DNA of 64,000 nucleotides, from positions 62,001 through 126,000 of the forward strand of contig WHVA01000025.1 in the NCBI GenBank assembly GCA_015179125.1, read 5' to 3'. Shown here piece by piece: positions 1 to 53,345 of this stretch; position 1 is the stretch's first letter, and each line of letters starts with the position of its first letter. A model generated the notes under the pieces. The model was not told where the DNA came from, did no database searches, and saw only the letters and a program-made list of their open reading frames with translations. The translations under genes and the position numbers were made by a program. Origin of the DNA: Gautieria morchelliformis (lineage: Eukaryota > Basidiomycota > Agaricomycetes > Gomphales > Gomphaceae).

Positions 1-410
1 AGGGGGCGGGTCCGAAGCCTGTGTTCCCTCACAAACTCCACATCGATGAACATCCCTGTAGCACCACTGTCAAGGAGGGAGTCAATTGCAAGTGGATGCC
101 CTGTGTCAACGGAGTGGACCTTGAGAGGTACTTTGGTGCATCGGTGGAGGTCAGCAGTACGGACATATAGAGGGACTGGAAGGTTTGCATTAGCAACTGG
201 AGCGATGGGTTGGGTTTTCGGCATGGCTGGTTTGGTTTCAGTTCGATCAGGGATAGGAGAAGGATGCATCATATCGCCTGTGATCCCTATTGTACATGTT
301 TCGAGAACTGAAAACCGATTCGTCGAGCAGGGCATGTCTTTCACCGCTGACTGGCCTAAAAACCCTTTCCTTCCTCTTGGACAGGGGCTTCCACCTTCTG
401 TTTGCGTTCC
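1..410 (-). CDS. Ty3/gypsy Pol, N-terminal part with aspartic protease (runs off left edge)
   Basis: This frame is open on the minus strand from 410 to the window edge and has no start codon of its own. It reads through a retropepsin active site, LLDSGATGMFID, at about 50-85, so it is the protease start of a gypsy Pol polyprotein. The protease would cut the Gag-Pol precursor inside virus-like particles. The frame lies -1 relative to the upstream gag, overlaps its last 18 codons, and can be entered at the slippery heptamer 359-365. RT, RNase H and integrase would lie outside the window to the left. It could be degenerate further on; the visible 136 codons are unbroken. Confidence 0.8.
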
Positions 411-1462
411 TCTATTGCCGCTGCTACAGATTTAGAGACAATTGCTGCAATGTCTGCCTCTGTGAGGTTTGCACGGATTCGTGGCTTGCGAGGTTCAGGA
501 CAGTCTGGTGAAATGTGACCAGGTCTCTTACAGTTGTAGCAGGTTCGTGTTTCGGTGCGGCGGCGGGATGAGTCAATGTCCATAGGTGTCGCGTTACTGG
601 GTGATGCTGTGGCAACAGGAGCCATAGCAGGAGTGTGGAGTGGTCGGGCAGGAGGAGGGCGATTAGGGACATGAGGTGTCTGTGCCTTCCTGACCTCTAA
701 CAGACGGCGATGATTGCGGTCAATCTGATAGGCTGCTTCCTTCCAGGCTTTGAGGTTGGATGGAAGAAAGGGCTGGGCGTGGATCTTGTCAAGGATACCT
801 GCTGGAAGGCCACGAGCATAGGCATCCTCAAGTGCCTCATCATTAAAGCCTGTCCTGCCTGCCAGGATCTCAAATTGAGCCGTGTATTCATCTGCCGACA
901 TTCCTGACGCCATCCTAAGGTCATGCAGCTTAGTGCGAGCCGTTCTGGCACGATCTGGGTCACCAAAGGCCTCCTCCACACGTTTAATAAACCCCTCCAG
1001 AGTGGATATAGAGGAGGTGCCATCAATGACAGCCTGTGTCTCGTTGTGTGCCCATATCTCCGCAGAGCCTCCCGTCATGAAGGAAAGAGCGTATAGGATC
1101 TTTGTGCGTTCATCTGGGAAGGATGCTGGCTGGACAGCGATGGACAACTTGATAGACCTGATAAACCCTTCAGTCTCTGCACGGTCTCCATTGAACTTCT
1201 CCAGTTCCGCTGCTTTGATAGAGCGAGTAGATGGAGGGACACTGTGAGGTACTGAGGGCGCAAGGGCTTGAGCAGCAGCAACAGCAGCGTTGGTGGCAGC
1301 ATTGGCTAAGTGGTCGTGAACGTTAGCAATCTGATTGTGCAGTTCCTGATTCTGCAGTTGAAGTTGCTGCAACTGCTGTGCTTGGCTGGAAAGGAGGCCT
1401 CGAAGAAATGGCCCATGGTCACCCAGGGTGTCTCAGTATGCGTCTGGGAGTTGGTCTGCCAT
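356..1462 (-). CDS. gag: Ty3/gypsy Gag with one premature stop at codon 10
   Basis: Capsid/nucleocapsid protein of the left-edge gypsy element. The only upstream in-frame ATG is at 1460-1462 (MADQLPDAY, then TGA at 1433-1435, probably a mutated Trp codon); from there the frame is open to the TAG at 356-358. A glutamine-rich coiled segment is followed by a retrotransposon gag domain (AELEKFNGDRAETEGFIRS, SFMTGGSAEIWA) and one CCHC zinc knuckle, CYNCKRPGHISPDC, at about 575-540. The full product would be about 368 residues. Longest-frame callers start at a TTG at 1372, which is not credible. The single nonsense codon makes this copy non-functional unless read through. Its leader and 5' LTR lie directly upstream. 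Confidence 0.85.
359..365 (-). promoter_or_regulatory. Predicted -1 ribosomal frameshift site, G GGT TTT
   Basis: In the gag frame the last codons read AAG GGT TTT TAG, so the heptamer GGGTTTT sits in the X XXY YYZ register and touches the stop codon. A -1 slip continues as L-G-Q-S-A-V-K into the protease frame. L-A virus uses the very similar G GGU UUA. No strong downstream stem-loop was found by eye. Confidence 0.65.
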
Positions 1463-1510
1463 AGGCTGAGATGAAGGCTGGTTAAGAAAAGTGTGTGGGG
1501 TCGTCCTATG

Positions 1511-1520
1511 AGCTTGATCT
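1511..1520 (-). promoter_or_regulatory. Self-priming primer-binding site of the left-edge gypsy
   Basis: The minus strand reads AGATCAAGCT two nucleotides after the LTR end. Its reverse complement, AGCTTGATCT, lies at 1690-1681, 34 nt downstream of the TATAAGA box, where the transcript should start. This is the Tf1-type arrangement, in which the mRNA 5' end folds back and primes reverse transcription. Confidence 0.5.
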
Positions 1521-1600
1521 TCTGTGAGGGCAACACTAATGACGAAGCCACAACCAAAGATACTCAAGGAGATAAGAGCCAATACTAGGACAATGACCAA

Positions 1601-1680
1601 CTGTATAGTGGGTATCCTCAGTTTATAACTCTACCAACGATAGATACATGGGGACTTGCCTGTATAGTGGGTATCCTCAG
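1601..1680. repeat. Pair of 20-bp direct repeats
   Basis: CTGTATAGTGGGTATCCTCA occurs at 1601-1620 and again at 1660-1679, 59 bp apart, in the transcribed part of the gypsy 5' LTR. On the sense (minus) strand it reads TGAGGATACCCACTATACAG. Confidence 0.9.
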
Positions 1681-1782
1681 AGATCAAGCTGAGGAAACGC
1701 CACCACACGGGCTACAGTCTTATAGCGCTGGCAAGGCTTACATAATAGGGGAGACGGAAACTTGTAGAAGGTTACGGAAAGT

Positions 1783-1879
1783 GACGGAAAGTGACATGTG
1801 ACGGGAAGTGACATGTGACGGAAAGTGACATGTGACGGAAGGTGACATGTGACAGAATGTGACATGTGACAGAAGGTGA
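1783..1879. repeat. 17-bp minisatellite in U3 (5.7 copies)
   Basis: Five complete units (consensus GACGGAAAGTGACATGT) start at 1783, 1800, 1817, 1834 and 1851, with a partial sixth. Units differ by one or two bases. They lie upstream of the TATA-like box, where LTR enhancer repeats usually sit. Confidence 0.9.
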
Positions 1880-3478
1880 TGGAAACTCATGGAAGGAAAT
1901 AGAAACTGGTGAAAGGAAACGCGTGAACCCTGACAACAGCTCGGGATCCCACTCCTCAGTGGGCGCGTCTCCGTTGTCCGGAGATTCACTGGGTTGGGGA
2001 TCACCCTCCCCCTCTTCATCAATTTGCTCAAGAGAATTTTCTCCAGCGTCCGCTCCAGATCCCCATTTCATCTTTGTGCCTCACGGCTGCCATCCGTATA
2101 TGGGATCTGAGCCAGGGGCATTCCGCCTTCTTATGGCCAGGTCAGCGGCATTCAAAGCACGTAGCGCTGCTTTGGCTACCGCTGGGCCAATCGTTAGGTC
2201 GTCCCGACACTTTCAGCGGTGGGGCAGATCGCAGTGATGATCCTGACACTTGAGGCTGTTTGGCTTCAGGCGGGCGTCCAGCTTGTGCTGGGCGTGGGGG
2301 GGGGGGGGCGGTCGCTGTGCCGCTCCACTCCTCGGGAACATGCTAGGCCTGGTCAGGCCTGTTTGTGTCACCAGCTTGTGTCACCAGCTTGTTCACTGCA
2401 AGCCAGGCAGCGCTTGCTGATGCCACTGCACTTTCTGCATGGCACATTCCCATGTTGTATCGGGACACCTCCTCGATCATGCGGGCCATCTCAAAGAACT
2501 GCTCTATCGAGCTGCTCTCAGCGTTATAGCCCTTTTTGAGGACTTCGTTGCGCAGTGGTTCACACAGCACCAACATGAACCGTCCCCAGAATGTGTAGTC
2601 GTCTGGTGGCTGTATCATACACGCTGCGTACTTACTTTGTGAGCTCGTTCAGCATCTCCTGAACGGTTTTCCTGCCCTGCATGACCGCGTCAACTTCATT
2701 CAATGCGTGGCGGTATGTCAGTGTGTGCAGGAACCTTTTTTGAAGGCCCTGCATCATTGTTTCCAGGGTCCAGCTGCAGACCTGGCGGTCGAAGCATTCT
2801 ATGTTTTGAAGGAACCACTCCTGGGATTCGCCGGTCAGGCGAGTGCCCACGTAGCCAACCTGCATGTCTATGCTGGTTGGCCCCAGGAGACAGTTCATTT
2901 TCAGCCATCGTAAGATGGCCGCAATGAAGATTTCAAACTCTTTGAGGTCAGATCCCCCAGCGTATGGCTTGGGGTGAGCCAGCTTTATGCCGGCTTTTGC
3001 AAGCACAGACTTCTCCAGGTCTGTGTTGGCGGTGTCTGCTAACGCCACGCGGATAATCCGTGTGATCCCATCGTACGGCTCCAGCGGTACGACGTCAGCC
3101 TGATCCAGTATGCCCTGGCCCTCTGTCCGGGCCATGGATCGTTCGCGCAGCTGTGATGCCACGCAGGGCAGGCTGTTGTATGCCCTGATGGGCCCCGGGC
3201 TCAGGATCAGCAGCATTTTGTGCTCTCGGATCTGGGGGCGTTTTGTGCCTGGTGTCCCCTGTCAGCCCCGCGTTGCGGATCCGCAGCCTGCTGTTGTAGG
3301 CTGCGTGTGCTTGTAGTGCATCCTGCACGGGGCGTGTGAGCTGCTCATCGGGCTGCTGAGTGATGTGGCTTTGGGCCACCACTTCCTCGGTGTTCTTCAC
3401 TAGCAGCTCAAAGGCCCACGTGTGGTGGCACGTGTAAGGGCAACCCTGGCTAGTTGTGGAGATCACACTACCACACAA

Positions 3479-3562
3479 CTGACAAGGGGAAATCCAAAGT
3501 ATGTATAAATGAACGGAGTATACAAGAGAGGGGATTCTCACCTGACAAGGGGAAATCCAAAG
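3479..3562. repeat. Pair of 21-bp direct repeats inside the gag relic
   Basis: CTGACAAGGGGAAATCCAAA (plus one G) is present at 3479-3499 and 3542-3562. The repeat lies in the disrupted stretch between the two gag-like blocks and may mark a small local duplication. Confidence 0.85.
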
Positions 3563-3714
3563 AGAAAAGTCTAAGGACCCCCAATGTCAGCGAGCCCGTA
3601 TTATACTACGCTGCGCAGCCAGGGACAACACTTGGCACCCGCCATCAACCCTGCATCCCCCTGACCCTTGATCGACCCTTGATGTCACCTATTATGCGAG
3701 TCGCTTGATTTCCG

Positions 3715-3900
3715 ACACTGTTCCGGGAGTGGAAGTCGGGAATTGGGGTGGAACTGGCAAGGCGAACAGAACTGGTGGAAGTTCTCCCAGAAGCGGAATC
3801 ATTTCCGAAAGCGGAGGCGGAGATGAAATCGGAACCGGAAGCGGAGTCGGAAATGGAGTCGGAACTGGGTGTGGTGTCGGAACTGGAAATGGAAAACAGG
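3715..3900. repeat. Low-complexity GGAA/CGGAA-rich stretch
   Basis: A run of short purine-rich units (CGGAA, GTCGGAA, GCGGA) on the plus strand. On the minus strand it encodes the Pro-Val-Pro-rich segment of the gag relic. It is simple-sequence expansion, not a separate gene. Confidence 0.7.
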
Positions 3901-4971
3901 GTGTCCCCTGACAGCACGTGGCTGTGGCCTCTTTTCGCTGCCAGTGCGCGGCTTTGAGCTCTAAGCTCTCCATCATTCCTTCAGAGTCAGGCTCTGAGGC
4001 GACTTGCTCTCTGACAATCTGTTGGATCGTCTTACGGCTGTCCGTGGGGGCAGCCAGCTCTCCTTGGGGTTCATTCCTGAACCGCATGTCCTGTTCAACT
4101 GGGGTGGCTGGCGGCGGAATTTGCTGCCGTTCCTGTCCCTCTCGCCATGGGTCTCTCGCGTCGTGGCCACGTTCACTGGCTGCGGACTGTCGCGAGCTTT
4201 GACGTGGCGTCCCATGTTCCCCGCATGAGCGGAGGGCTGTCTGAACTTCCTCCAGTGTGGCCACATCTTGCTGCCTGAGCTCCTCGATCTGGTGGAGCTC
4301 TTTGCCAAACTCCATGAGGGCAGGGGCAATGTTATCAAGCTGCGATGCGATATGATCGTGCTTGTGGCCTGTGAGGGCATTCCGGTCCAATGCGTCCTGC
4401 ACCTGTTTGTTCATCAGCCGTCTCGTTGTCGATGGCATGTGCCCTCAAGCTCTTGTGACTTGAGCTCGAGTATTCCGAGCCCTGACCGTCGTCAGGGGCT
4501 CGTCTTTTTTGTCTTCGTCCTCCTTCGGGGATGATAGTCGTCGCTCGACTTCATGAGCGGCGGTTCGAGTCTCGGCTTTGTGCCCATCTCGATATCGATG
4601 CTCTGCCATCTGACGATGGTGAGACCTCTCTGCCTTTTCTTTTGTCTCTGGGCAGAGGGGATTGGGGGGGGCAGCGCCGGCTTGTCACCTGGCGATGTCT
4701 CATCCTCGACCACGCTCGGTGAGACATGGTCAGGGCTTTCCTCCTCCTCTATTGGGGGGATGAGGGCGGTGAGATCTACGATCTCTCCATCTTCTGGCGT
4801 CCTGGATTCTTGGTCCAGGGTAGCGTCAGCCGTCATGTCACTGGGCTGTGATTGTGGTGTGGACCGTGAGCTCGATGCTCATGTCCGTCTTCGACTGCGT
4901 GGAATCATCACGCTCGCAGATGGCAGTAGAGGGTCTACTGGAGGGTCTCAACGATGTTTAGTCGTCGACGC

Positions 4972-4993
4972 AGCGATCTTTTTCAAGATTGCT
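4972..4993 (-). other. Leader hairpin, copy 1
   Basis: On the minus strand AGCAATCTT / AAGATCGCT form a 9-bp stem (one mismatch) around a GAAA loop, between LTR 5050-5602 and the gag relic. A homologous leader at 27354-27379 keeps the hairpin with a different stem sequence. Confidence 0.5.
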
Positions 4994-5049
4994 TAGAACC
5001 CACAATCGGTTGGTCTCATGGCAATCAACCGCAGGATAGTTCAAAAAGG

Positions 5050-5602
5050 TGTAACGATGTCGATCTTATGCCTTGTATCACAAGGGCACAGCAGAACTTG
5101 ACCAAGGTGTGGTATTCTGAATGCTACATAGTGACAGGTAAGAGTAAGATGTGATGGGGACCGCTGGCCAGTTCCCACGCATGAACTATACAGTGGGTCC
5201 GTAAAGGGCCTGGGATTATGTAATAACTAGTGTACATGTACAGGTTATTTACAAATAGGGTAGTACTAAGCAAATTCCAGAGGGAGTGGAAATCGGGTAG
5301 ACATATGGGGTAAGTAACTAATGCGGAACAAGGGGATAACAAGGGGGTACAGGGTAGAGTAAGAACAATGGCAAAAGAACAAAGGGTGCGTAAGTACAAT
5401 GGGCATCGGAATAATCAGAAATACAGAAATGGTATCTTGCTGTGCTCAGGGTCGAGTACGGAGGCCAGTGAATAGAGTCGACCAGGGGTACTGAAGAACA
5501 AGGGGTCAAGATCGTGGGTTGCGGAGGTTGTGGAATAGAGTCGGAGGTGCTGCAGAGGTGTTCTGGAGGTGGCGGAGATGGTTGAGTGGCATGGTCATAA
5601 CA
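5050..5602 (-). mobile_element. Diverged Ty3/gypsy LTR, probable 5' LTR of the gag relic
   Basis: Minus-strand ends are TGTTATGACC (5602) and CGTTACA (5050). The central part aligns by eye with the 691-bp LTR at 7960-8650: both share GTTCTTT(T)GCCATTGTTCT, a GAACCCCCTTGT-like block and GGAATTTGCTTAGTAC in the same order. The next bases inward are CC and then TTTTTGAACTAT, whose first eight complementary bases (ATAGTTCA) also occur at about 5197-5190, a weaker self-priming signal. The LTR abuts the plus-strand copia integrase at 5603. A right-hand CATGG at 5603-5607 has no matching duplication on the other side. Confidence 0.55.
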
Positions 5603-6715
5603 CATGGCAAGCAACATAAAATGCCATTTAAACAGGGGATGACAAGAGCAACTCACTTAGGCAAATTGATCCATATGGATCTTGCCGGCCCGATGGAGAC
5701 AACTAGCTTCGATGGAAAGAAATATTTTCTAATCATCGTTGATGACTACACACGCGGAATTTGGGTCGAAGCACTTACCCTGAAGTCCAAAGTTGTTTCC
5801 AAAGTTAAAGATTTCAATCAGCAGTTTGAAATGGGATACAGCGCAAAGGTCGGCGGCATCATGGCCGACAATGGAACCAAGTTCATCAATAGCGAAATGA
5901 ATTGGTACTTAAAGGGTAAAGGCATCACCTTGTATACTTCTGTCGGGTACCTGCATGAGCAGAATGGCATTGCAGAGCAGGCAATCTGCACGATTACTGA
6001 GGGAGCACTTGCCATATTGTACGCATCAAAACTCCCTAAAAGTCTATGGTCAATAACAGTCAAAACTATGGCCTACCTTCGTAATAGGTCGCCAGCGTGC
6101 ACTAATGGCGGTATTACTCCATCTTACAGGAGAAAACCTGATCTAGCACACCTCCTAATTTTTGGCTGTCCAGTAAGTGTTGCGGTACCTAAAGAGAAAC
6201 GGAGGAAATGGGACTCAAGATAATGCATGGGCTATATGGTCAGATATGAACCTTATGCCACTGGATACCTAGTATGGTACCCAGGCAGTTGTCATGTCAA
6301 AAAGGTTAGAGACGTGATTTTTCATGAAGATGCTATTGCACCTGCAATACCAACCTTATATGGCAATGACGAAGCTCCACATAGTGTTAGCGAGCCCTCA
6401 GATACAAAAACAACGCAAACCTTGCCGTCAAAACATGCTCCGGCCCCTCCAGCCCCAGTAACTCAGCTGTGTCTTTTTATATGGATCCCTGCACATCCTA
6501 CATGTGTTGAATATGACCCCAAAGACCAAGGTCATGCGACAATTGAGGAAATCCTTTCTGATCAAGATGAGCAATCAGTCAAAGATTGATCAAAGCTGGT
6601 GTCAGACATACCTGAGTTTCCACAAGGAATGATGCGGTCAGGCAAACAACGCGGACACATACAATGTATCTTCGCGTCAGAAGATATGGAGGAAGCTGTC
6701 ATCATGTCAGAGAAT
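5603..6715 (+). pseudogene. Ty1/copia integrase region (first fragment of the plus-strand copia)
   Basis: Starts in the GAG-pre-integrase segment (HGKQHKMPF, lacking the zinc cysteines) and runs through an rve integrase core: first Asp in HMDLAGPM, second Asp in MADNGTKF, catalytic Glu in QNGIAEQAICT. A one-base shift near 6222 separates the core from its C-terminal part (VWYPGSCHVKKVRDVIFHED). After a TGA near 6589 the linker still reads in another frame as SGKQRGHIQCIFASEDMEEA up to 6715. Gag and protease are missing upstream because LTR 5050-5602 abuts it. The linker resumes near 21840 after about 15 kb of nested insertions. Dead element. Confidence 0.75.
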
Positions 6716-6755
6716 TGTTACATGCAGTACTGAGTTTGAAGGAGGAAATGTATAT
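6716..6755. repeat. Insertion-end repeat, left copy (pairs with 21756-21795)
   Basis: TGTTACATGCAGTACTGAG and the following bases match 21756-21795 at about 36 of 40 positions. The right copy is directly next to the primer-binding site of the minus-strand copia, so both copies are probably LTR ends of that element, which landed in the plus-strand copia. The full LTR boundaries and a duplication could not be resolved. Confidence 0.5.
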
Positions 6756-7959
6756 ATTAGTTCTGAATACAAGCAGATCTACGAGAGCCTCACCTGAGTT
6801 CAAAGTCTTGTTAGTTGTGGTGTCGCAAATAGCTAGTAGAAATATGATTCAAACTCATAATAGGAGTCGAATCGAGAAGTGCTTGAGAAAGTAGGGTGTT
6901 TGCACATATAACAGCGTATATGCGTCTTACAACAGTGCTGACTGAAGCTAGTAGCTAAAAGTGCAATAGAAGTGAGTGAGTAACTGTTTTCACTGTCGAA
7001 TGCAGTATACAAAGTCGAGTATTTAACTATCATGAAAAGAACTTGGCGTTCTTGGTGTGTTACAAGATGAGAACAAAAGAGATGTTGTATGGGGTAACTG
7101 GCATAGGTTTGAGCATTAGTGTTATGAAGTGAGGATCATCCGGCATTTTTCCTGTTATTTCTACCATTTTTCCTAGCCTTCTAGGTAGTATTCTTCTGCT
7201 TGTTACGCTTGTGTCACCTGTCACCATTGCTAACACCGGTGATTGCCATTCCGGTGTTCCACAACGTTCTACCGGTTTCCACCCCTATGACCGTCATATA
7301 CAAGTACTAGATCATTAGTTACAAACAATCCAATGGTTTTAGCCCTTCACTCCCATGAGGAGTCCGGTCGAGCGAGTTAACAGTGTCCTCGCTAGTGTCT
7401 ATTCTCTCGCACGTTGCGCTTCGTGTCCCGTTCCACCTGTCTCTATCTCCCTTCTTATCCCTCAATTACAGATTAAGAGTCTCAGTTTCACCGACGGCGA
7501 GCTAGATCCAAATACGCTGTTACACTACGAGTACTACATGACGACTCGTACTTTGGGCGCATTTCTCTAGGTGCAAGTCTCTGAACCCTTGATACTCGGA
7601 CTCACTGACTTGAAGGGGTGGTTTACACACCATCCTCTGACTCTTGCGCTCCATTCACCTCTCCCGACTGGCCAGACCTGCCAGTTGTGTCGCCATCGCC
7701 GTACGTGACATGCCACGTCATGCAGTCGCCGCCATCGTCGACATCGCCGCTGGACTCACACATCCACCGGCCAGCTCGCTCAAGAAGAGCCACAATCATC
7801 CAGCAGGCTTGATAAGCCCTGCATCCACGCTGGGGAACCCCAATTGACCCCCCAGGACCCTCTGGACGGCGCGCAAGCCTCAATCGCCGCCCAACGCTCA
7901 TCTACCATCGTATCTGCGCTCCACATCGCTTCAGGCCAGCGCAGACAATGGCACATGCC
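6756..7959. other. 1.2-kb stretch without recognised gene
   Basis: It contains AT-rich DNA up to about 7330 and more GC-rich DNA after 7600. Open frames here are short and overlap on both strands. It may be the outer part of the minus-strand copia's 3' LTR or older host sequence; nothing diagnostic is visible. Confidence 0.4.
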
Positions 7960-8650
7960 TGTTACGACCGTTCATTTCCGACTTCCGACCCTCAGTTCCG
8001 CAACACCTTCCGCCCCTCCTATATTTCCACAACACCTTCCGCCCCTCCGATATTTCCGACATTCCGCCCCTTGTACATTTCCCTTGTTCTTTCGACTCTA
8101 TTACTCGGACCCACCGGACCCACCTCACCGTTCATCAAGATCATACGTCCGGCCCTCCTTGTGTTTCATTGTCAGATATGTTTTCCTGACCCCTTGTTCT
8201 TTGCCATTGTTCTACCTTACCCTGAACCCCCCTTGTAGTCCCATTGTTCCCAATAGTTAGTTCCCACGCATTGTCTACTCGACTTCCGCTTCCTCCGGAA
8301 TTTGCTTAGTACCATATCATTACCTGTTGTCTCAGCTCTTTGTATAAAAGCCTGTCATGTATGTCTCTCTTTCTGCAATCAGATAATCACCTTCGATACT
8401 TGATTTCCTTCGCTCCATCTCCTGTTCTTAGCACAGCGAGTCTAGCAAGATCTCAGTCTCTCTCCACCTTCCGTCTTCCGCCTTCCGCCTCAGTTCCGAC
8501 CCAAGTTCCGACCAACCTTTGGCTCAGTGCCTTCCGACTTCCGACTCAGTTCCGAAATACTTAGGACGATAGTTCATCGGGGGCGCAACCTATAAGTTGA
8601 AGCCGCCGTCCTTTCCAGTTCCGACTTAGTGGAAATCTCGATACGTAACA
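7960..8650 (+). repeat. 5' LTR of the chromovirus
   Basis: 691 bp from TGTTACGACC to ATACGTAACA with a perfect 7-bp terminal inverted repeat. U3 begins with TTCCG-rich imperfect tandem units (about 7990-8080). A TATA box, TATAAAA, is at 8343-8349. Confidence 0.92.
8343..8387 (+). promoter_or_regulatory. TATA box and predicted transcript start of the chromovirus
   Basis: TATAAAA at 8343-8349 is followed 34 nt downstream by AATCAGATAAT at 8377-8387, the sequence complementary to the primer site after the LTR. In Tf1 the self-primer is the first 11 nt of the mRNA, so transcription should start at 8377 or very close to it. Confidence 0.65.
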
Positions 8651-8652
8651 GT

Positions 8653-8663
8653 ATTATCTGATT
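8653..8663 (+). promoter_or_regulatory. Self-priming primer-binding site
   Basis: ATTATCTGATT begins two nucleotides after the LTR end and is the exact 11-nt reverse complement of 8377-8387. The site shows no obvious match to a tRNA 3' end beginning TGG. Length, spacing and position match the Tf1 self-priming arrangement. Confidence 0.75.
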
Positions 8664-8683
8664 CCCACCCGATAACTATCACT

Positions 8684-10132
8684 ATGCCTCCTCGTACCAC
8701 AGCTACTTCAGCTCGAGCAGGAGCTGTCGAAGCTCTCTCTTATTTTGGCAGTCTCAGGTCCACAGCACCAAGGCACGCGGAACCCTCCGGCAGCTCTCAT
8801 GCCGACGATGAGCTCTCCGATGCTATTCCGCAACGTTTCGAAGAAGTTCCCGATGCTAATCCCAACGACAATCCCGATTATGACGGGAATTCGACAAGTA
8901 GCAGCGGTGAACAAACAGCAGCGTCATTCCGACGCCCAGCTCCACCACCACCACCTCCACCAGGACCACCTCCAGGCGGCCCTCATGGTAGCCCACCTGG
9001 CGGTCCTCCAGGCGGTCCTCCACCTCCAATTCCACCTCAGATTCCTGCCAACCCAGTTCCACCCACGCCAGTTCCGGATCTTGCACAAGCCATCGCCATG
9101 CTAGCCGGACAACTTCAGCGCCCGGCCCAAGCACCACCATGCCCCAAGACAAAGGTCTGCGAACCAGATCAGTTCGATGGTTCCGACCCCAAGAAGCTCC
9201 AGCCATTTCTGGTCCAGCTTCAACTCAATTTCCGTGATCGTCCCGACGCCTTTCCCGACGATGAACGGAAGGTCAATTACGCCCTTTCCTATCTCCGAGG
9301 CACGGCTCTCGACTACTTCGAACCCGCCCTCATGGATCCGTTCGCTCTCGTCGACTGGGCCGACAATTACCACAACTTCGTTTCTGAACTCCGCAGCAAC
9401 TTCGGACCATTTGATATGGAAGCCGATGTGGAAAATGAACTCAATAAACTTCGCATGAAAGACACTCATAAGATAGCTAAATATATCGTCACATTCCAGC
9501 AGCTCGCTCCTCGAGTCCAATGGGGAGAAGCCGCACTCCGACACCAGTTTTACATGGGCATGCCATCCCGCATCAAGGATGAAACTGCCCACGTCGGAAA
9601 ACCCGCCACCCTTACCGACCTCCGCAACCTTGCCCAATCCATCGATTCGCGCTACTGGGAAAGACACTCTGAGATTGCTCGCGAAACTTCCACCCAGAGC
9701 AAGAACGACAAGTCTTCCGACAAGAAGTCTGATAAAGACAAGAAGAAGACCAATTCCGGAAACAACAACTCCGGAAACAACAACTCCGGAAACAACAACT
9801 CCGGAAACAACAACAGCAACAACAGTTCCGGATCCAACCCTGGCAACCGGAACAACAACTCCACCCCTCGCAACAACCAGGCCTCTGGTTCCAACACCAA
9901 CGCTCGGAAGAGCACTCCGGACCTTTCCGATAAACTTGAGAAGGACGGAAAACTAACCCCTGTAGAACGCCAGTGTCGCATGGACAACAACCTTTGCCTT
10001 TTCTGCGGCAAAGGCGGTCACGTCGCTCGCGACTGCACTCGCGCTTCCGCCTCCGCTGCTAAGGCCAAGGGCCACGCAGCAAAGACGGAAGAGAAATCCG
10101 AAGCGGCTCCTGCTGCGGATTCAAAAAAATAG
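8684..10132 (+). CDS. gag: Chromovirus Gag
   Basis: Intact 482-residue Gag starting at ATG 8684, 33 bp after the 5' LTR/primer region. The N-terminus is disordered with a poly-Pro/Gly run (residues about 85-130). A retrotransposon gag domain follows (CEPDQFDGSDPKKLQPFLVQ to LAQSIDSRYW, about 160-325). Then come a Ser/Lys/Asn-rich linker with four 15-bp repeats (SGNNN, about 362-380) and one zinc knuckle CLFCGKGGHVARDC (438-451) for RNA binding. It would form the virus-like particle in the cytoplasm. It ends S-K-K-stop at 10130-10132 on a slippery A run that leads into pol. Unlike pol, it has no frameshift or stop. Confidence 0.92.
   Translation: MPPRTTATSARAGAVEALSYFGSLRSTAPRHAEPSGSSHADDELSDAIPQRFEEVPDANPNDNPDYDGNSTSSSGEQTAASFRRPAPPPPPPPGPPPGGPHGSPPGGPPGGPPPPIPPQIPANPVPPTPVPDLAQAIAMLAGQLQRPAQAPPCPKTKVCEPDQFDGSDPKKLQPFLVQLQLNFRDRPDAFPDDERKVNYALSYLRGTALDYFEPALMDPFALVDWADNYHNFVSELRSNFGPFDMEADVENELNKLRMKDTHKIAKYIVTFQQLAPRVQWGEAALRHQFYMGMPSRIKDETAHVGKPATLTDLRNLAQSIDSRYWERHSEIARETSTQSKNDKSSDKKSDKDKKKTNSGNNNSGNNNSGNNNSGNNNSNNSSGSNPGNRNNNSTPRNNQASGSNTNARKSTPDLSDKLEKDGKLTPVERQCRMDNNLCLFCGKGGHVARDCTRASASAAKAKGHAAKTEEKSEAAPAADSKK
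9753..9820 (+). repeat. 15-bp in-frame tandem repeat (about 4 copies) in gag
   Basis: TCCGGAAACAACAAC is repeated about four times, giving Ser-Gly-Asn-Asn-Asn units in the Gag linker. The 15-bp length keeps the frame. Confidence 0.85.
10123..10129 (+). promoter_or_regulatory. Predicted -1 ribosomal frameshift site, A AAA AAA
   Basis: Gag codons read TCA AAA AAA TAG, so the seven A residues are in the X XXY YYZ register and touch the stop. A -1 slip leads to ATA GTC AGC and a frame that is open through the protease. The geometry is the same as at 359-365 in an unrelated copy. Confidence 0.7.
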
Positions 10133-13100
10133 TCAGCAGTCCTCCGGCCTCCGCACGAGCTGAGGGCTGTGTTGACCCCATTCATGCGACAAACGAGGTT
10201 AAACTCAACGCATCCGCTCTTTCGTCCTCCGACTCCCTTTCCATTCCGCTCACTTCTGACACCATTTCCGCACCCCCGTTCACAGCACTGGTCGACTCCG
10301 GTTCGACTCATTGTTTCCTCGATTCTGACTTTGTTTTGAAACATAAACTTCCGACCCGCAACATTCCGACTATTCCGCTCCGCCTTTTCGACGGATCTTC
10401 CAACACGGCAATTTCTCAAGTCGTGGATCTGTCTATCCGTTTCGCTACTGGGGACAACCATGAAGTTAGGTTTTACGTTACTCCGCTAAATGCTAGCTGT
10501 TCCGTTGTACTAGGACACAATTGGCTCACCCGATATAATCCGTCGATTAACTGGGCATTGGGTCAAATACAGTTCCGTACCCGGGATCAACTTCCGTCTA
10601 TTCCGACGTCGTCCGCAAAGATGGCCCAGGCCTCTTCTGCATCTCCGCTCGTGGATTCAGTTCCGCATTCCGGTCCCGCTTTAGCAACTCCGCCCCTCGA
10701 AGCTCCTCGAATTGCGCTCGTTTCCGCCACCGCTTTCCGCGTATTGCAACGGCAAGATAATACGACCGTTTTCCAGCTTCACCTCTCCGATTCGGCTTCA
10801 GTCAAGGCTCGTTCCGCCTCGACTTCCGCTCCGGTCGACATGAGCTCAGTTCTGGAAGAATATCGTGACTTCCCGGACGTGTTCAATAAGGCCAAAGCCG
10901 ACAAACCCGCTGAACATCGACCTTACGATTTAAAGATAGATTTGCAAGAAGGAGCATCTCCGCCCCTTGGACTGATCTACTCCCTTTCGCAAAGTGAACT
11001 CCAAACTCTCCGCAAGTTCGTCAATGAACATCTCAACATGGGCTTTATCCACCCTTCGCTGTCCCGCATGGCGCTCTGGTCCTTTTCGTCAAGAAGAAGG
11101 ATGGATCTCTCCACCTCTGCGTCGATTTCCACAGACTCAATGCCCTCACTAAAAAGGAAAATTTCCGCTTCTGCGCATTTCCGACCTACTCGACACTCCC
11201 CGCAGGGTGAAGATCTACACCAAAATTGACCTCTGGCACGCTTATCACCTTGTCTGCATCCGGGAAGGTGACGAGTGGAAAACCACTTTCCGCACCCGCT
11301 ATGGTGCTTTTGAGTGGGTTGTCATGCCTTTCGGTCTAACCAATGCTCCCACCGCTTTTCAGCGATTCATGAACGACGTATTTTCCGACCTTCTCGACGT
11401 ATGCGTCCTAGTCTACATTGACGACATCCTCATCTATTCCGACACACCGGAAAAACATCGGGACCATGTCCGCGAAGTACTCCGCCGTCTCCGCAAACAC
11501 CACCTCTACGCAAAAGCAGAGAAATGCGAATGGCATCGCGACACGGTCGACTACCTCAGCTACATCCTCTCTCCAACAGGTCTTACCATGGCAGAGGACA
11601 AGGTCAAGGCAATTCAAGAATGGCCGGAACCCCGACGTGTTAAGGATGTGCAGTCTTTCCTTGGCTTCGCCAATTTTTACCGGCGTTTCATTTATAATTT
11701 TTCCGACATTACTGTTCCGCTCACGCGTCTCACCAGGAAGGGTGCTCATGGAATTTCACTCCGGAATGCCGTTCCGCATTTGAAGCCCTCAAATCGGCCT
11801 TCACTACGGCTCCTATACTCGGTTTCTGGATTCCTGATGCCCAACTTGTACTCGAAACCGACGCTTCTGACTACATGCTAGCCACCATTCTTTCCATCAT
11901 TTCCCCACGACGGAGAAATTCATCCGATTGCCTTTCATTCCCGCACCTTTTCCGCCCCGGAACTCAACTATGACTCCACGATAAGGAACTACTTGCGATT
12001 TTCGAAGCCTTCAAAATCTGGAGACACTACCTGAAGGTCCAACTTATCCGATCGACGTTGTAACGGATCATAAGAACCTTGAGTATTTCGCGACTACTAA
12101 GATTTTGACTCGCCGTCAAGTCCGCTGGTCTGAATATCTCTCACAGTTCAACATGGTGATCCGCTTCCACCCCGGAAAGCTCGGAGCAAAACCCGACGCG
12201 CTCACTAGACGTTGGGACGTCTACCCAAAAGAGGGAAGTAGCGACTATGCCAGCGTTAATCCGCACAATTTCCGCCCAGTATTCTCTACTGAGCAGCTGG
12301 CATCGTCCCTGCGTGCCACAGCATTGCAGTTTCCGCTACTCCGCGCCTCAATCATTATGGACACCGAGTCTCTCCATTCCGACATCTGTTCCGCACTTCG
12401 TTCCGACCCCATCTCCGCAGCCCACCTCGATGACCCCACCAGTCCTGGATGGTCCCTCGATTCCGACGGATTTCTCCGGTACAAGTCCCGGATTTACGTT
12501 CCGGATACCAACGATCTACGACTTCGCGTACTCCAGCAAAGCCACGATCATCCGCTCTCAGGACACCAAGGCCAGAACAAAACCCTCACATAATCCGACG
12601 TACCTATACTTGGCCTCTTCTCCACACGATGGTCCAAGACTATTGCAAGTCATGCACCACCTGTATGTGAGCCAAGCCTCAACGTCACAAACCATACGGC
12701 CTCCTGAAGCAACTTCCGATCCCGGAACAACCGTGGAATTCGATATCCATGGATGTCATTGAGAAACTTCCTAAGTCATCTGGCTATGATACCATTCTAG
12801 TGATCGTTGACCGCCTCACAAAGCAGTCCATCTTTATTCCGACATACGACACCATCACTTCCACCCAACTCGCACAACTTTTCGTGCTCCACGTCTTTTC
12901 CAACCACGGAATCCCTTCCCATGTCACTTCCGACCGTGGGTCAGAATTCGTGTCCTCCTTTTTCCGCACACTCGGCAAGGCTCTCGACATGAAGCTCCAC
13001 TTCACCTCCAGTTATCACCCCGAAGGAGACGGCCAAACGGAACGTACTAATCAGACCCTTGAGCAGTATCTCCGCGTCTATTGCAACTACCAACATAGCA

Positions 13101-13815
13101 ATTGGTCCGACCTCCTTCCGCTCGCGGAATTTGCCTACAACCACGCGCCTTCCGCTACCACCGGAATTTCACCTTTTACGCCAACAAGGGCTACCACCCG
13201 AATCTCGCCATCCACCCTGAACGCGACCTCGCCTCTGCAAGAGCCCAAGATTTCGTTGTGGAACTTGACGACCTTCACCAGCACCTCCGAGAGAACATTA
13301 CCGCTGCACAAAAGAGATACCAAACTTCCGCCGATCGGAAACGACTTCCGCAACCGGCATTCGAGATAGGCGACAAAGTCTTCGTCAAAGCTGAAAACTT
13401 CCACACCACTCGCCCCTTGAAGAAGCTCTCTGAGAAATACCTTGGTCCTTACGAGATCATCGCTAAGGCCGGCAGTCGTTCTTTCACTCTCAGACTTCCT
13501 GACAATATGCACGCAGTACACCCGGTATTCCATGTCTCCATGCTTGAGCCCGCAGTTCCGAACACAATTCCGAATCGAGAACAACCTCCGCCTCCGCCAG
13601 TCGTCATCGACGGAGAACCGGAATATGAGATCTCGGAAATTCTCAACTCCAAGCTCGACAGACGATACCGCTGCCAACTCCAGTACCTAGTCAAGTGGGC
13701 AGGCTATGAAAACACTGACGAAGAGACTTCCTGGATTTCCGCCACGGAACTAGACCTCGTCTCTGATTTCCACAAGTCTTATCCTGATAAACCTGGCCCC
13801 ATTTCCGTGCCTTAG
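10129..13815 (+). pseudogene. pol: Chromovirus Pol (protease, RT, RNase H, integrase, chromodomain), frameshifted
   Basis: The frame entered by the -1 slip is open to about 11070. It contains protease LVDSGSTHCFLDSDF (near 10290) and the start of RT. RT then continues in other frames: VKKKDGSLHLCVDFHRLNAL, KIDLWHAYHLV, and the catalytic VYIDDILIYSD near 11417. RNase H is eroded (about 11740-12250). Integrase shows the zinc motif (HDHPLSGHQG, then CKSCTTC), the first Asp in MDVIEKLP, the second in SDRGSEF, and Glu in DGQTERTN. A C-terminal chromodomain (EYEISEILNSKLDRR, YLVKWAGYENTDEETSW, 13620-13780) probably directs integration to modified chromatin. At least five frameshifts (near 11070, 11209, 11745, 12595 and 13170) inactivate it. 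It ends at 13815, 131 bp before the end of the antisense gene. Confidence 0.85.
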
Positions 13816-13945
13816 TCATTTCCGACCTCATTCCGATACCCCATTGTTTTCTCACAAGTTCTCAAGTCATTGTTCAAATCCGATTACTATTCCGCTACGC
13901 TAATTTCCGACACTTCAAGAAATATTTACAAGTCACTTCGACACC

Positions 13946-15198
13946 CTACTCCTCCCTCATCGTTTCCGCCTCTTCCTCGTTCTCCATTTCCGCACCCTCT
14001 TCCGCATTCACTATCTCCACACTGACCAACCCGGTCCCCACCCTCGTATCCGCCACCTGACACGGACCCGCTTCCGCCCCGTTCTCCTCCTGCATCCGCA
14101 AGTCCATCCTTTCCCGGACCATGTCATTCCGCCACCGGTACTCCCGCTTGAACTGCTCCAAGACCGCCGACATAACGGTCATCTGGTTTTGGAAGGACAA
14201 CAACTGCTGTTGTTGAACTTCCGCCATCTCCTCCAGAGTGTTCCGGATCCCGCGCTGGGATCTCCGGATACCCCTCAACGACCTCGCGATGTCAAACAAC
14301 GGTGACACCATGGAGAAGCGGTTGAGCACCGCAGTCTCCGAGGTTCCGGTCACCAGAAACCCCTCCGGCTTCTTTCCGCTCGGTCCCGGTTTCGACTTGG
14401 GGGTCTCAGGCCCCTCGGTCTCAACCCTGCGCCGTTTCCACTCCACCCTCGCAGCACACCCATCCACCACGCAACGACGCTTCTTGTCCCGGCACCGTTC
14501 GCAGGCCATCTCCCACGGATTTTCCGACCACACACACTCCAGGCCCTTGACTTCGCACGTGTCGCAAGGAGCCTTCTCCTCCTCGCCGTCCCTGGTTTTC
14601 CTTTTCCGGGTCGCGGGATTTTCTGGCCCCAGCTCTCGCAACTCCAGTATCCAGGCCATCTTCTCTTTCTGAGCCTGCTGGAACTCAGCTGCCCTCCGTT
14701 TCCGCTCCGCAACGATGTTCGGCATGGGAGCACCTTCTTTCTGCTTCCCCTTGCCCTCTGGAGTCGGTGTGCTTTCCGCACTGCTTTCCGCTTCTGACTC
14801 CCCCTCGGATTCTACGACTCTCTGGCAGTTTTTCCGTGAGCTCTGGAACACCCCACACGACGTTTCCGACTCACCCGGGATTTTCCCGCCTTCTCCACCA
14901 CGGCCTTGTCTTCCGCAGCCTTTTGGGCCACGTCCCGTTTCCGCTGTTCTTCGCGGATACGCGACTCCTCCTCGCGACGTCTACGGTCACGATCCTCCTT
15001 CTCCTTCCGATCCTGTTCCCAACCCTCCAGTTCCTTGCGCTCTCTCTCCTTGCGCTCCTCCTCCAGACGTTCCCTCTCTTTCCGCGCGGCTTCCTCGGCC
15101 TCGCGCTTTTCGGCCAGTTCCTTCTGCGCAAGCATGTCAGCAAAATGCTGCTTCATCTCGGCACTGGACATTTTGGAGAAGTCAACTGGAGTACTCAT
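13946..15198 (-). CDS. Antisense accessory gene of the chromovirus: coiled coil plus Zn2Cys6-type cluster
   Basis: Encoded on the minus strand between pol and the 3' LTR. Exon 1 is 15198-14875 (ATG at 15198, 108 codons). A 53-nt GT-AG intron lies at 14874-14822 (donor CGG|GTGAGT, acceptor TGCCAG, a CTCAC branch-like motif). Exon 2 is 14821-13946. Both junctions are phase 0, and joining them gives 399 residues without a stop. Residues about 27-105 are a charged Glu/Arg/Lys coiled coil. At about residues 194-225 the cysteines follow C-x2-C-x6-C-x10-C-x2-C-x6-C (CDTCEVKGLEC ... CERCRDKKRRC), the spacing of Gal4-type Zn2Cys6 DNA-binding clusters, followed by a basic stretch. The C-terminus has a Gln-rich helix and an acidic tail. 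No function can be assigned; regulation of the element or of host genes is inference. It has outlasted the decay of pol. Confidence 0.75.
14471..14566 (-). other. Zn2Cys6-like cysteine cluster of the antisense gene
   Basis: Codons for the six cysteines span this interval. The pattern C-x2-C-x6-C-x10-C-x2-C-x6-C fits the family rule, in which the middle loop varies from about 5 to 12 residues. Lys-Lys-Arg-Arg lies between the last two cysteines. Confidence 0.75.
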
Positions 15199-15320
15199 GG
15201 TGGATCAAAACGAAGAAGCGTCTTGTTTCCTTCCTATCTTTCGAACTCCGACGCGTTTGTTCACAGGTCACGTGATTCCGACTTGTGGTCTCGCAGGGCT
15301 CAACCTTAGAAGGGAGATAC

Positions 15321-16011
15321 TGTTACGACCGTTCATTTACGACTTCCGACCCTCAGTTCCGCCACACCTTCCGCCCCTCCGATATTTCCGCAACACATTC
15401 CGCCCCTCCGATATTTCCAACCTCCCGCCCCTTGTACATTTCCCTTGTTCTTTCGACTCTATTACTCAGACCCACCGGACCCACCTCACCGTTCATCAAG
15501 ACCATATGTCCGACCCTCCTTGTGTTTCGTTGTCAGATATGTTTTCCCGACCCCTTGTTCTTTGCCATTGTTCTACCTTACCCTGAACCCCCTTGTAGTC
15601 CCATTGTTCCCAATAGTTAGTTCCCACGCATTGTCTACTCGACTTCCGCTTCCTCCGGAATTTGCTTAGTACCATATCATTACCTGTTGTCTCAGCTCTT
15701 TTGTATAAAAGCCTGTCATGTATGTCTCTCTTTCTGCAATCAGATAATCACCTTCGATACTTGATTTCCTTCGCTCCATCTCCTGTTCTTAGCACAGCGA
15801 GTCTAGCAAGATCTCAGTCTCTCTCCACCTTCCGTCTTCCGCCTTCCGCCTCAGTTCCGACCCAAGTTCCGACCAACCTTTGGCTTAGTGCCTTCCGACT
15901 TCCGACTCAGTTCCGAAATACTTAGGACGATAGTTCATCGGGGGTGCAACCTATAAGTTGAAGCCACCGTCCTTTCCAGTTCCGACTTAGTGGAAATCTC
16001 GATACGTAACA
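15321..16011 (+). repeat. 3' LTR of the chromovirus
   Basis: 691 bp, TGTTACG to CGTAACA, colinear with 7960-8650. The TATA box recurs at 15704-15710 and AATCAGATAAT about 28 bp after it. The antisense gene's start is 123 bp upstream of this LTR, so its promoter may lie in or beside it. Confidence 0.92.
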
Positions 16012-35788: not shown

Positions 35789-38545
35789 ATGTCTCCTCAA
35801 ACACCAGTTAAGGTCAGGACTGACAAGCTATCAAGACCATTCAAGGCGGATGCCCTTCGCCAACATATTGAAACAGCTATAGATTCCAGGACTTTCCAGA
35901 CCTTCAGTCTAGTCGACGACCAGGGACCGATGCCGACACCGTTGGACACCGCAACCACGGAGAAATGCTCTTCATATATCAAAGAAATCACGGAGATCGC
36001 TAAAAGCGAAAAGGATCTCTACAAGCCTGTCACCAAGCTGCTTACGGAGATAAGTCGCTTTGTCCACGCCAGGCCCTCCACGAAACCCCTGAACTCCGTT
36101 CTCACCGACAAGAGTTCGCTGATAATGTTTATAATCCGGGCAAATTCTGTCCAAGACGCTGACGATGGAGAGGTGATTAGGCCCGACATCGTAGGTGTTG
36201 AGGCAGACGCCGATGAAGTTGCAGACTACCTGGATAAGAATAGGCTCCCAAACCGGCTTTCTTCTTTGCGCTGGTCCCAGCTGGTCTCGGTTGGCGAAAT
36301 AAAGTTATCTGCGATGCCTGAGAAGAGTAACCAAGAGGATCTGGTCCAGCTGCTAAGCTACGTTTGGTGCACAAACCGCTATCAACCCAATCGCTTTCTC
36401 CACACGGCTATAATGGCGTACAAGACCGGATTTTTCACCTTACAATGTCTTCCGGACAGTGCGACCTTCTCGTGGAATCACTCCTATGACAACCATCATG
36501 CACTGTTTCAGTATATTTATGCCCTGTACTACCCTGAATCTGGAGCCAACTTGCAGCCGTGCCAATTCACAAATTTGAAGCCCATTCAGCCGCCAAAGAT
36601 AACTACCGCCGCCATCGGTCTAAAGCCATCGTTCAATTACGCTGTTCGAGACGTAGAATATTCCGTCTTCGACCTCTTCCATGGCTCGGGTTTTTCCCGA
36701 CAGGTGTATGTTGGGCTGGGAGCTACAGCCACTCGGAGCACAGGGATTCCAAAGGTTATCGTGTTGAAAGTTTATTGTCGGGATGTCACCCGCCGATTCC
36801 GCGAAGAGGAGATACTTCAAGAAATCCACAAAGACGGTTATTTACCAGGAGTCCCGAGGATTTCGAAAGACGCGTCGGAACGGCCATTCCAGTTTCCGGG
36901 ACATAAGGATCACACTCGAGAAGCGTGCATGGTACCTTTAACAACAACAGGGGAGAGTTTGAGTAAGTGCAAGGACGTCTTGCAATTCTTGAAAGCCATG
37001 TATGATCTCACTGAAGGTTTGTGCGTAGCTCTATTGTCCATACCGACACTAACCAACCTTAGTTCATCGCGTCCTTGTGGAAACGAAGGGCATATTGCAT
37101 CGTGACATAAGTTGGGCAAACATCCTTATCAACTATCAACATTTCGAGGGTCCCGATGAAATCGACCTTAACATTCCATTCATTGACAGGATCTTAAACC
37201 AACGGTGAGTTATATATTTCGATTGTTTCCCGGCATAACCTCATGCCATATCCCAGGGTGCCGAAAGTGCAAGTGCTTCTTACGGATTTCGACAATGCCA
37301 TGAAAATTCATGGGACGGGGCACAGACACGCACCCGATGAAGCCAAACTGGTAAGTTGGCATTACAAGTAATCTGATTATCGTCTTACGTCCGACGTAAG
37401 GCTGAGCAGCGCGGTATCACTGTAAGCGTGTAATTTTTATGGTGTAGCACTGGGTTAACTTCTTGGGACAGGGCACGCCAGCTTTCATTGCAGAGGTTCT
37501 CGCCCACCCTTCTCTTTCTGTTGAATTATTCCCATTTCAACGTCTGGAAACACTCAACGATACCATTCCACATCCCCGGACTGACAGAGACAGTTCTGAT
37601 AAACAGTTTTTCCAACAAGTGGCCACGTACAAACGTTTGGAGAACAAGCATGTTTCACACCAAGCGATCCACGATGCCGAATCCATTTTCTGGGTCATTG
37701 TGTTCTTCATGGTCCGTGCCAACCCAAAAGGTTCAGACAGCTACAAAACATACGTATGCGTTCGGAGACATTTGACGCCATCCTGGAGCACGAGATTGGG
37801 AACGCCGCAGTGCTCGTGATTCACTTTGAGCATTTTACGGGGGAGGAGTGGGAAGAGATGCTTCCGGAAAAACTATCAGAATTTTCTGCGACACTTCACG
37901 AGCTTTGGCGCTACTTTTCGTTCCCCTGGTATGGCATACAAGTGCCTCCCGAGCATCAGTTTCATGCGCACAACTTCCTACAGCGATTGCTCTTCCGGGA
38001 GATCAAGCGACTTATCCACATGGCGGATTCCATAGAACTTGAATTGGCCCCACTGCCTGTTTACTCAAGCCTGTCGGGGATACAACGCTCCGCTACTCTG
38101 GGGCCCTCCCTGCGTCTCCTCTCGCAGCAAAAACCACAGACAGAGGACAACAGCGAAGCTCCGCCTGCAAAGCGCATGCGCAGGGAACACCAGCAGTCTC
38201 GGGCATACCATGGTGATGTTTGCCTGTATATATTCACTTTACATCATATCATTGACCTATCTCAGATGAAGGTGCTCTCTCCACTGCGGCCGACGTGCCG
38301 ACCGATGAGCTCATGGCATACAGTCGTATGAAATTTCGCCTTCGATTCTAGCTGACCGCGCTCTCCGAAAAGTAGTCCAGGACGTACGGGCTTCTGTGGA
38401 CTTACAGAAACTATGGTTCACCGCAGAGCCAAAACCTCGTTTCCCGATTCACCCCTTTAGGCCAGGATATTCGGGCCACGACGTCATGTATCTAGATAAG
38501 GAAATAGCGTGTCGAGGAGAGGTCACCTCGTTGCAAATCAAGTAA
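35789..38545 (+). pseudogene. FunK1-type fungal protein kinase, copy 1 (two single-base frameshifts)
   Basis: Five exons: 35789-37016, 37063-37204, 37257-37350, 37448-38212 and 38266-38545, with GT-AG introns of 46, 52, 97 and 53 nt. The start ATG (MSPQTPVKVRTDKLSRPF) is the one shared with the copy at 56085. The N-terminal FunK1 region has LYKPVTKLLTEISRFVHA and PDIVGVEADA. The kinase core has VIVLKVYCRDVTRRF, the catalytic loop LHRDISWANILIN (about 37095), a DFD motif LLTDFDNAM replacing DFG, and GQGTPAFIAEVL and HDAESIFWVIVFFM. Relative to copy 2, one indel near 37750 and one missing A near 38295 shift the frame; without them it would end at TAA 38543-38545. Probably a recently disabled Ser/Thr-type kinase; substrates unknown. 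Confidence 0.8.
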
Positions 38546-49087: not shown

Positions 49088-49308
49088 TGTGGAACGAAGG
49101 AGATATAATGATCTGATATTCTACGATCTCAAGTAGATCGTTCTGCCTTATATACAAAATATAATGTCCATTGTATTACCAATCTCTTCGAGCTGCTGTG
49201 CCGATGCGATGCCGGTGCACCAGTAACCCGGGTCGAGAGCGATCTCGAACCTCCGGCTAAATGCGTGCTGGCTCTGCCTCGGCGGTGTCATCGTCCCGAT
49301 TACTAACA
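49088..49308 (-). repeat. 3' LTR of the intact copia
   Basis: 221 bp. The gag-pol stop codon at 49257-49259 lies 52 bp inside it, an overlap also seen in the plus-strand copia. A TATA-like TATATACAAAATATAA stretch is at about 49150-49165 on the plus strand. Confidence 0.93.
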
Positions 49309-53279: not shown

Positions 53280-53345
53280 CGTCGATCGGTATTGAGTTAT
53301 TGGAGTATAGAGCGTAGTTAGATTTGTAGTAGTTTAGTTATGCGC

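Follow-up and report, generated by a model that had tools for sequence, protein, structure and literature searches.

A spliced antisense gene with a predicted zinc cluster in a Ty3/gypsy chromovirus of Gautieria morchelliformis

We analysed a 64,000-nt stretch of Gautieria morchelliformis DNA (contig WHVA01000025.1, forward-strand positions 62,001-126,000), referred to here as the window; all coordinates are window positions. It contains a Ty3/gypsy chromovirus (7960-16011) that carries a two-exon gene on the minus strand, placed after pol (which ends at 13815) and before the 3' long terminal repeat (LTR). The gene runs from 15198 to 13946 and specifies a joined product of 399 amino acids. This gene is inherited with the element under purifying selection, and its sequence marks it as almost certainly a real, spliced, protein-coding gene. 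Our best reading of its role, held at a little under even confidence, is that it encodes a DNA-binding regulator that would act on its own element through CGG-type sites. The initial annotation, made from the letters of the sequence, had described the antisense gene, its two frames, the 53-nt intron, the 399 residues and the cysteine spacing inside a Ty3/gypsy chromovirus, and all of these were borne out.

The antisense gene is inherited with its element under purifying selection

The gene recurs throughout the same genome. A DNA search of the 122 Mb assembly (best 40 of 483 candidates scored) returned at least 40 long matches at 84-100% identity, and all 20 of the matches fetched, which had been chosen by the gene itself, place it beside matching pol and LTR sequence. 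When the genome was searched with the exon-2 protein (best 134 of 723 candidates scored, 70-100% identical) and with the pol end (best 150 of 4040 candidates scored), 76 of the 134 exon-2 loci had a scored pol end no more than 3 kb away, every one on the opposite strand and mostly at a distance of 129-157 bp; among the scored loci there was no same-strand pair within 5 kb. Six pol loci without a scored partner were fetched, and all six carry the gene, with exon 2 63-75% identical and in one case partial. A query taken from one of these six, the diverged copy L048, yielded 77 further loci outside the first exon-2 list; compared with the 71 of 150 pol matches still unpaired, 34 of these loci pair with remaining pol ends, likewise on the opposite strand and without a same-strand pair; over both sets the distance is mostly about 130-160 bp. 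Exon 2 is thus carried by at least 211 scored loci, and of the 150 scored pol ends 110 have the gene no more than 3 kb away and invariably in antisense; the homologues that the initial annotation had proposed to look for in sister copies were found, antisense beside pol.

The intron behaves as expected of one that is removed. Its length ranges from 51 to 57 nt among copies, free of a multiple-of-three constraint, and the spliced frame still stays open. The donor GTGAGT is present in the window, in 18 of the 20 nearest copies and in 11 of 11 diverged copies; it is altered in the other two nearest copies, one of which also has an altered acceptor. Retention of the intron would truncate the protein in 17 of the 21 intact copies. 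Given the known life cycle of such elements, the intron would be able to persist through retrotransposition, because it is antisense to the genomic RNA and hence unspliced there.

Selection was estimated as the ratio of nonsynonymous to synonymous divergence (dN/dS). Strict criteria classed 21 of the 32 copies examined as intact; the other 11 (L010, L011, L015, L018, L019, L021, L022, L025, L026, L028 and L031) were left out for a broken frame or for a start or donor outside the strict pattern, and L040 was left out of the exon-1 estimates only. Pooled dN/dS for exon 1 was 0.20 among 11 close copies, 0.27 between the window and nine diverged copies, and 0.20 among those nine; for exon 2 the corresponding values were 0.23 (11 close copies), 0.17 (window against ten diverged copies) and 0.20 (among those ten). 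Within exon 2, the lowest value belongs to the zinc cluster (0.11, residues 81-135), followed by the helical part (0.16, residues 166-240), the N-terminal linker and residues 136-165 (0.24 each) and the acidic tail (0.41), the least constrained region. Third codon positions account for 51% of the differences in exon 1 and 55% in exon 2. Maintenance by selection, as the initial annotation had supposed, is therefore upheld, with values around 0.2 in both exons and not near 1. Its suggestion that the gene was selected separately, being intact while pol is broken, was not supported: the adjacent pol end has a similar dN/dS (0.17), and the gene itself fails the intactness criteria in 11 of 32 copies. 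Because the gene stands antisense beside most scored pol ends, has a dN/dS of about 0.2 and keeps its spliced frame open, we regard it as an old, selected part of the element, derived neither by chance nor by late capture.

Exon 2 differs in history from the sequences around it. In nine diverged copies compared with the window copy, identity is 0.92-0.96 for the pol end and 0.87-0.97 for the LTR halves, against 0.72-0.90 for the four parts of exon 2; for ten diverged copies, synonymous divergence from the window copy is 0.58-1.10 in exon 2 and 0.14-0.26 in the adjacent pol end. Relative to window positions 13816-14874, the spacer, exon 2 and, in several copies, the intron of L029-L044 are far more divergent than the flanking pol and LTR. 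Trees of 30 copies gave a mixed answer as to whether the exon-2 class forms one clade, which was rejected by the LTR tree (p-AU 5.7e-5) but not by the short pol data (p-AU 0.18). Since exon 2 is divergent and pol and LTR are conserved, recombination that placed divergent versions of exon 2 on one backbone is the simplest reading, and exon 2 has probably been exchanged between copies as a module.

The predicted protein and its known counterparts

The cysteines of the joined protein lie at residues 194, 197, 204, 215, 218 and 225, with a seventh at 230, and the first six form the two C-x2-C-x6-C triplets of the Zn2Cys6 pattern. Across 24 aligned proteins, four of the six cluster cysteines are invariant, the other two are at least 90% conserved, and the seventh is invariant. 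The order of the halves departs from that of the Pfam family PF00172, in which the basic triplet comes first: here CDTCEVKGLEC, which comes first, matches the second half of the family profile (positions 7-34), whereas CERCRDKKRRC, which follows, matches the first half (positions 2-13; weakly when taken alone, E 0.69), and its basic residues agree with those expected there. We read the cluster as a circularly permuted Zn2Cys6 domain. Gal4-type Zn2Cys6 regulators (PF00172) share with it the two triplets, one of them basic, and read sites of CGG type, which for the window protein are candidate sites, but have the halves in the opposite order; the match to Gal4-type clusters in the initial annotation was correct as to spacing, and the reversed order of the halves is a correction to it.

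The rest of the protein is predicted to be largely helical and highly charged. Charged residues make up 73% and hydrophobic ones 10% of exon-1 residues 28-100, which contain 27 pairs of E to K/R at i+3/i+4 against 18.6 expected (reached in 4 of 2000 shuffles), and this region appears to resemble an ER/K single helix more than a coiled coil. A heptad pattern is found instead in exon 2, where 64% of the a/d positions of residues 165-242 are hydrophobic in the best register. Of the long charged coiled coil that had been annotated, the charge was confirmed and the coiled coil in exon 1 was not. No solved structure similar in sequence to exon 2 was found at E <= 10. Taken together, the permuted Zn2Cys6-type cluster, a helical dimerisation region, several basic stretches and the acidic tail suggest a nuclear DNA-binding protein, an assignment that we consider likely.

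Two queries of a database of about 5.8 billion proteins, one with exon 2 read from its initial ATG (E <= 0.001, 727 candidates) and one with a profile of 14 rows (E <= 0.01, 7037 candidates), gave no homologue of the antisense protein. The same database contains 1766 relatives of the integrase end of the element; among the 120 listed, two are assigned to named species (Trametes cinnabarina and Cyclocybe aegerita). In viral contigs, no homologue was confirmed among 65 pattern matches. The titles and opening lines of abstracts found, mostly from outside the subscription literature, name no antisense gene with a zinc cluster from a basidiomycete element and no Zn2Cys6 cluster in permuted order.

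Antisense extra genes in LTR elements are, however, already known. The plant Ty3/gypsy elements Grande, RIRE2 and Retand carry antisense extra open reading frames (aORF-3R), in Retand with a TRP28 domain that is predicted to bind DNA (PMC11963269 and PMC7264820). Like these, the window gene is antisense, lies between pol and the 3' LTR, is present in most copies, is conserved at the protein level and is predicted to encode a DNA-binding protein. The aORF-3R elements differ in having plant hosts, and Retand is not a chromovirus, whereas the window element is a fungal one; TRP28 (PF04195) gave no Pfam match to the antisense protein at E <= 1; and the word "intron" occurs in the text of neither PMC11963269 nor PMC7264820, whereas the window gene has one. 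Closer in host is brtn of the Boty-like elements of Botrytis cinerea and Sclerotinia, an antisense extra gene in the same place, between pol and the 3' LTR, of a fungal chromodomain-bearing element (PMC7264820, PMC8365987 and PMC4227169, citing Zhao 2011); it is likened here by description and not by sequence. In human T-cell leukaemia virus type 1 (HTLV-1), an antisense spliced transcript from the 3' LTR encodes the transcription regulator HBZ (PMC1459196). The likeness (antisense, spliced, regulator-like) is one of possible working, since the window transcript is predicted, and HBZ is a bZIP protein whereas the window protein has a zinc cluster.

The VANDAL elements of Arabidopsis are DNA transposons. 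They encode a DNA-binding protein, VANC, and their copies are rich in a short motif that keeps one orientation (PMC5735166); the window element likewise encodes a candidate reader of a short motif that is abundant in its copies and mostly points one way. The VANDAL motif is mainly non-coding and borne on tandem repeats, whereas the window motif, TTCCG, also occurs in coding sequence and is common to a second family. VANC acts in anti-silencing, a role that is proposed for the window protein. What is new here is the over-representation of TTCCG, including in synonymous codon choice, and an exon 2 far more divergent than pol and LTR.

The TTCCG/CGGAA motif and possible functions

Counted against expectations from dinucleotides and ranked among the 1024 5-mers, the window element contains 110 TTCCG (16.8 expected, rank 1) and 27 CGGAA (8.3 expected, rank 6). 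Both LTRs were recognised in seven copies, and in the five used for whole-element word counts (L023 and L028 being left out) TTCCG invariably ranks first, as it does in 31 of 32 LTR pieces, the exception being a 509-nt piece. The excess extends to codon choice: under synonymous shuffles that keep protein and codon usage, TTCCG stands above expectation in six of six sense coding pieces (two integrase pieces overlap), and CGGAA does so in gag, in both integrase pieces and in antisense exon 2. The non-coding context is TTCCG[AC]C. With both orientations summed, there are 13-21 sites per kb over 8001-16000 and 0-5 from 16001 on. No excess of the motif was found in three host chaperonin genes (one family), the copia element of the window or window positions 16100-64000; the VANC-like pattern of a motif dense in its own element and rare elsewhere thus holds against these controls but not against a second chromovirus family, which shares the motif.

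CGG is the usual half-site read by Zn2Cys6 proteins, so the antisense protein is an obvious candidate to recognise CGGAA. A role in LTR control had been raised by the initial annotation, and the motif supplies a candidate DNA target for it. In the mechanism that we propose, the gene would be transcribed from the 3' LTR side, then spliced and translated, and a dimer of the protein would bind CGGAA (TTCCG) sites, which crowd the LTR, mostly pointing the same way, and are scattered through gag, pol and the gene itself. Binding would alter how the element's own copies are transcribed or their state as chromatin, and we rate activation or anti-silencing as likelier than repression. A fuller version, in which the permuted Zn2Cys6 protein reads CGGAA accumulated element-wide (including at synonymous sites in gag and pol), copies are marked for activation or silencing escape, exon 2 is swapped as a module and a gene-free family parasitises the signal in trans, seems to us unlikely to hold in all its parts.

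Several observations weigh against a regulator acting through this motif. The Pfam Zn_clus score of the window protein is 21.0 for the ATG-started frame and 20.6 for the whole of exon 2, against a cut-off of 21, and the five diverged copies scanned fall lower, with 8.6-18.3 in four of them and no match in the fifth. Exon 1 shows no motif excess over synonymous shuffles (4 vs 2.1). Within the LTR, conservation does not set the motif sites apart from 5-mers clear of the motif: the per-site values are 0.703 for the motif, 0.711 for motif-clear 5-mers and 0.602 for other CpG-containing 5-mers. Outside the element, window positions 1-7900 contain 15 CGGAA against 5.7 expected (rank 2), and positions 1001-5000, with gag-like remnants, reach 9 sites per kb; the remnants lie at 356-1078 and, weakly, at 2632-3216 (minus strand), and are perhaps relics of motif-bearing chromoviruses.

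The motif is also abundant in chromoviruses that lack the gene, which counts on the same side. Six loci of other chromoviruses lack any relative of exon 2 over the roughly 3.7 kb that start at the end of pol. A complete chromovirus of another family (G000:C448:479034-485239, L057 plus L051; LTR of 464 bp, 99.8% identical; pol frame of 1457 codons) has no antisense gene anywhere, and its top 5-mers are CGGAA (56) and TTCCG (47), against 9.3 expected for each; none of 500 synonymous shuffles of its pol reaches either count. Its both-strand motif density equals that of the window element (about 16.6 and 17.0 per kb), and five further chromovirus loci that lack the gene downstream of pol have 5-11 TTCCG against 1.2-1.8 expected in 1600 nt. 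Because of the equal density the motif is independent of the antisense protein in cis, and this slightly lowered the likelihood that we give to a link between the two, which stands a little under even. The motif may serve both families (i) through the same protein in trans, (ii) through a host factor, or (iii) for some other reason. That TTCCG is a host-factor or general chromovirus feature, and that the antisense protein has another target such as host promoters, is accordingly a real if less than probable alternative; Zn2Cys6 proteins commonly read CGG, though, and a protein acting in trans on the gene-free family remains compatible with the motif there.

A repressor or "immunity" protein that controls the copy number of its own family is an unlikely alternative to the activating regulator that we favour. 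Here the swapped versions of exon 2 would be regulatory identities, like the exchanged immunity regions of temperate phages, in keeping with the divergent module on a conserved backbone and with the LTR tree. The pol tree, however, does not reject a single exon-2 clade. Nor is there a sign of changed specificity: the zinc cluster is the most conserved part of exon 2, and in all 11 diverged copies examined the LTR pieces have TTCCG as their leading word.

Quite unlikely is a role in the particle or pre-integration complex (as nucleic-acid chaperone, in nuclear import or in chromodomain-linked targeting) and not in transcription. The protein is basic, helical and highly charged, and extra genes of this kind have no known function in plants either (PMC7264820); but the antisense placement and splicing would imply a separate transcript and not a Gag-Pol product, and the acidic tail and zinc cluster resemble those of transcription factors. 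Antisense transcripts of LTR elements may act via double-stranded RNA (PMC7264820), and the RNA rather than the protein could work in this way or by interference over the 3' LTR; we find this very improbable, as selection at the amino-acid level would be left unexplained. Scarcely credible, despite the host-like intron and cluster type, is a chance open frame, ruled out by dN/dS far below 1, or the recent capture of a host Zn2Cys6 gene that the initial annotation had allowed for, ruled out by the deep divergence between exon-2 classes (synonymous divergence up to 1.1) and by the gene's presence beside most pol ends.

Antisense genes of LTR elements have so far been without known function; the intron, recognisable domain, measured selection and candidate site found here make function directly testable. 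If the favoured regulator reading is true, retrotransposons would have in this gene an equivalent of the antisense regulators of viruses and the anti-silencing proteins of plants. The reversed order of the zinc cluster, the divergent exon 2 on a constant pol and LTR backbone and the motif shared with a gene-free family are further oddities open to test.

The window also contains a copia element (49088-53579) whose 221-bp repeats are identical. Its single gag-pol frame, of 1340 codons on the minus strand, is enriched in GCCGA (20 vs 6.9) and TGCCG (12 vs 3.2); the LTR of the element is not, and GCCGA is almost absent from it. Neither GCCGA nor TTCCG was among the top words listed for two further copia pieces, and we stop short of proposing a separate motif for each family.

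The host element and its surroundings

The element has gag, protease, reverse transcriptase (RT), ribonuclease H (RNase H) and integrase in the order of a Ty3/gypsy element, followed by a chromodomain and flanked by LTRs (Table 1). Gag, protease, RT, RNase H, the integrase core and the chromodomain each pass the Pfam cut-offs piecewise, each in its own frame. The pol of this copy consists of several stop-to-stop pieces between which the frame changes, in agreement with the at least five frameshifts annotated initially.

Table 1. Coordinates of the element, its antisense gene and associated features
Feature	Position	Strand	Basis or detail
5' LTR	7960..8650	+	691 bp; direct repeat of 15321-16011, 97.5% identical
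gag, open frame	8684..10132	+	Retrotrans_gag and Ty3_capsid above cut-off; zinc knuckle under curated cut-off
pol, broken into several frames	10063..13815	+	Pfam per piece; frames
Protease piece of pol	10063-11229	+	Pfam
RT piece of pol	11153-11881	+	Pfam
RNase H piece of pol	11985-12593	+	Pfam; also sub-threshold H2C2 match
Integrase core piece of pol	12671-13369	+	Pfam
Tf2-type SH3 and chromodomain piece of pol	13099-13815	+	Pfam
Exon 2	13946..14821	-	291 codons plus stop
Acidic C-terminal tail	13949..14095	-	15 acidic, 2 basic of 49 residues
Predicted helical / coiled-coil region	14096..14329	-	exon-2 residues 165-242; heptad count
Six-cysteine Zn2Cys6-type cluster (predicted)	14471..14566	-	joined residues 194-225; Pfam PF00172 on halves scanned apart
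Intron	14822..14874	-	53 nt, GT-AG; GTGAGT...CTCAC...TGCCAG
Exon 1	14875..15198	-	108 codons; start context CCACCATG
Charged ER/K-type helix in exon 1 (predicted)	14899-15117	-	composition, charge pairs
Stretch from antisense ATG to 3' LTR	15199..15320		LTR-adjacent part purine-rich
3' LTR	15321..16011	+	TATAAA at ~15704; 15 TTCCG sites
TTCCG sites in 3' LTR	15344-15398 (5), 15644, 15830-15911 (8), 15980	+	15 sites
Element-wide TTCCG/CGGAA motif	7960..16011		5-mer counts given in the text

The stretch between the antisense ATG and the 3' LTR is a candidate antisense promoter region and a candidate polypurine tract. The LTRs of the window element have the ends TGTTAC...GTAACA. Four copies, the window copy included, have both LTR ends readable: perfect 5-bp duplications flank two of them, whose LTRs are 98.1% and 98.4% identical, which speaks for movement of the element with the gene aboard, and no target-site duplication was found at the window copy (flanks ATGCC/CGAGG) or at one other.

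Elsewhere in the window, two similar frames, at 35789-37105 (MSPQTPVK...) and 56085-57341 (MSTQTPLN...), are apparently one gene in two copies, the first without a Pfam match at E <= 0.01. A fragment of a DUF6570 protein lies at 44257-44952 (E 6.9e-24), and a fragment of a Helitron-like N-terminal domain at 63449-63949 on the minus strand (PF14214, E 7.9e-34).
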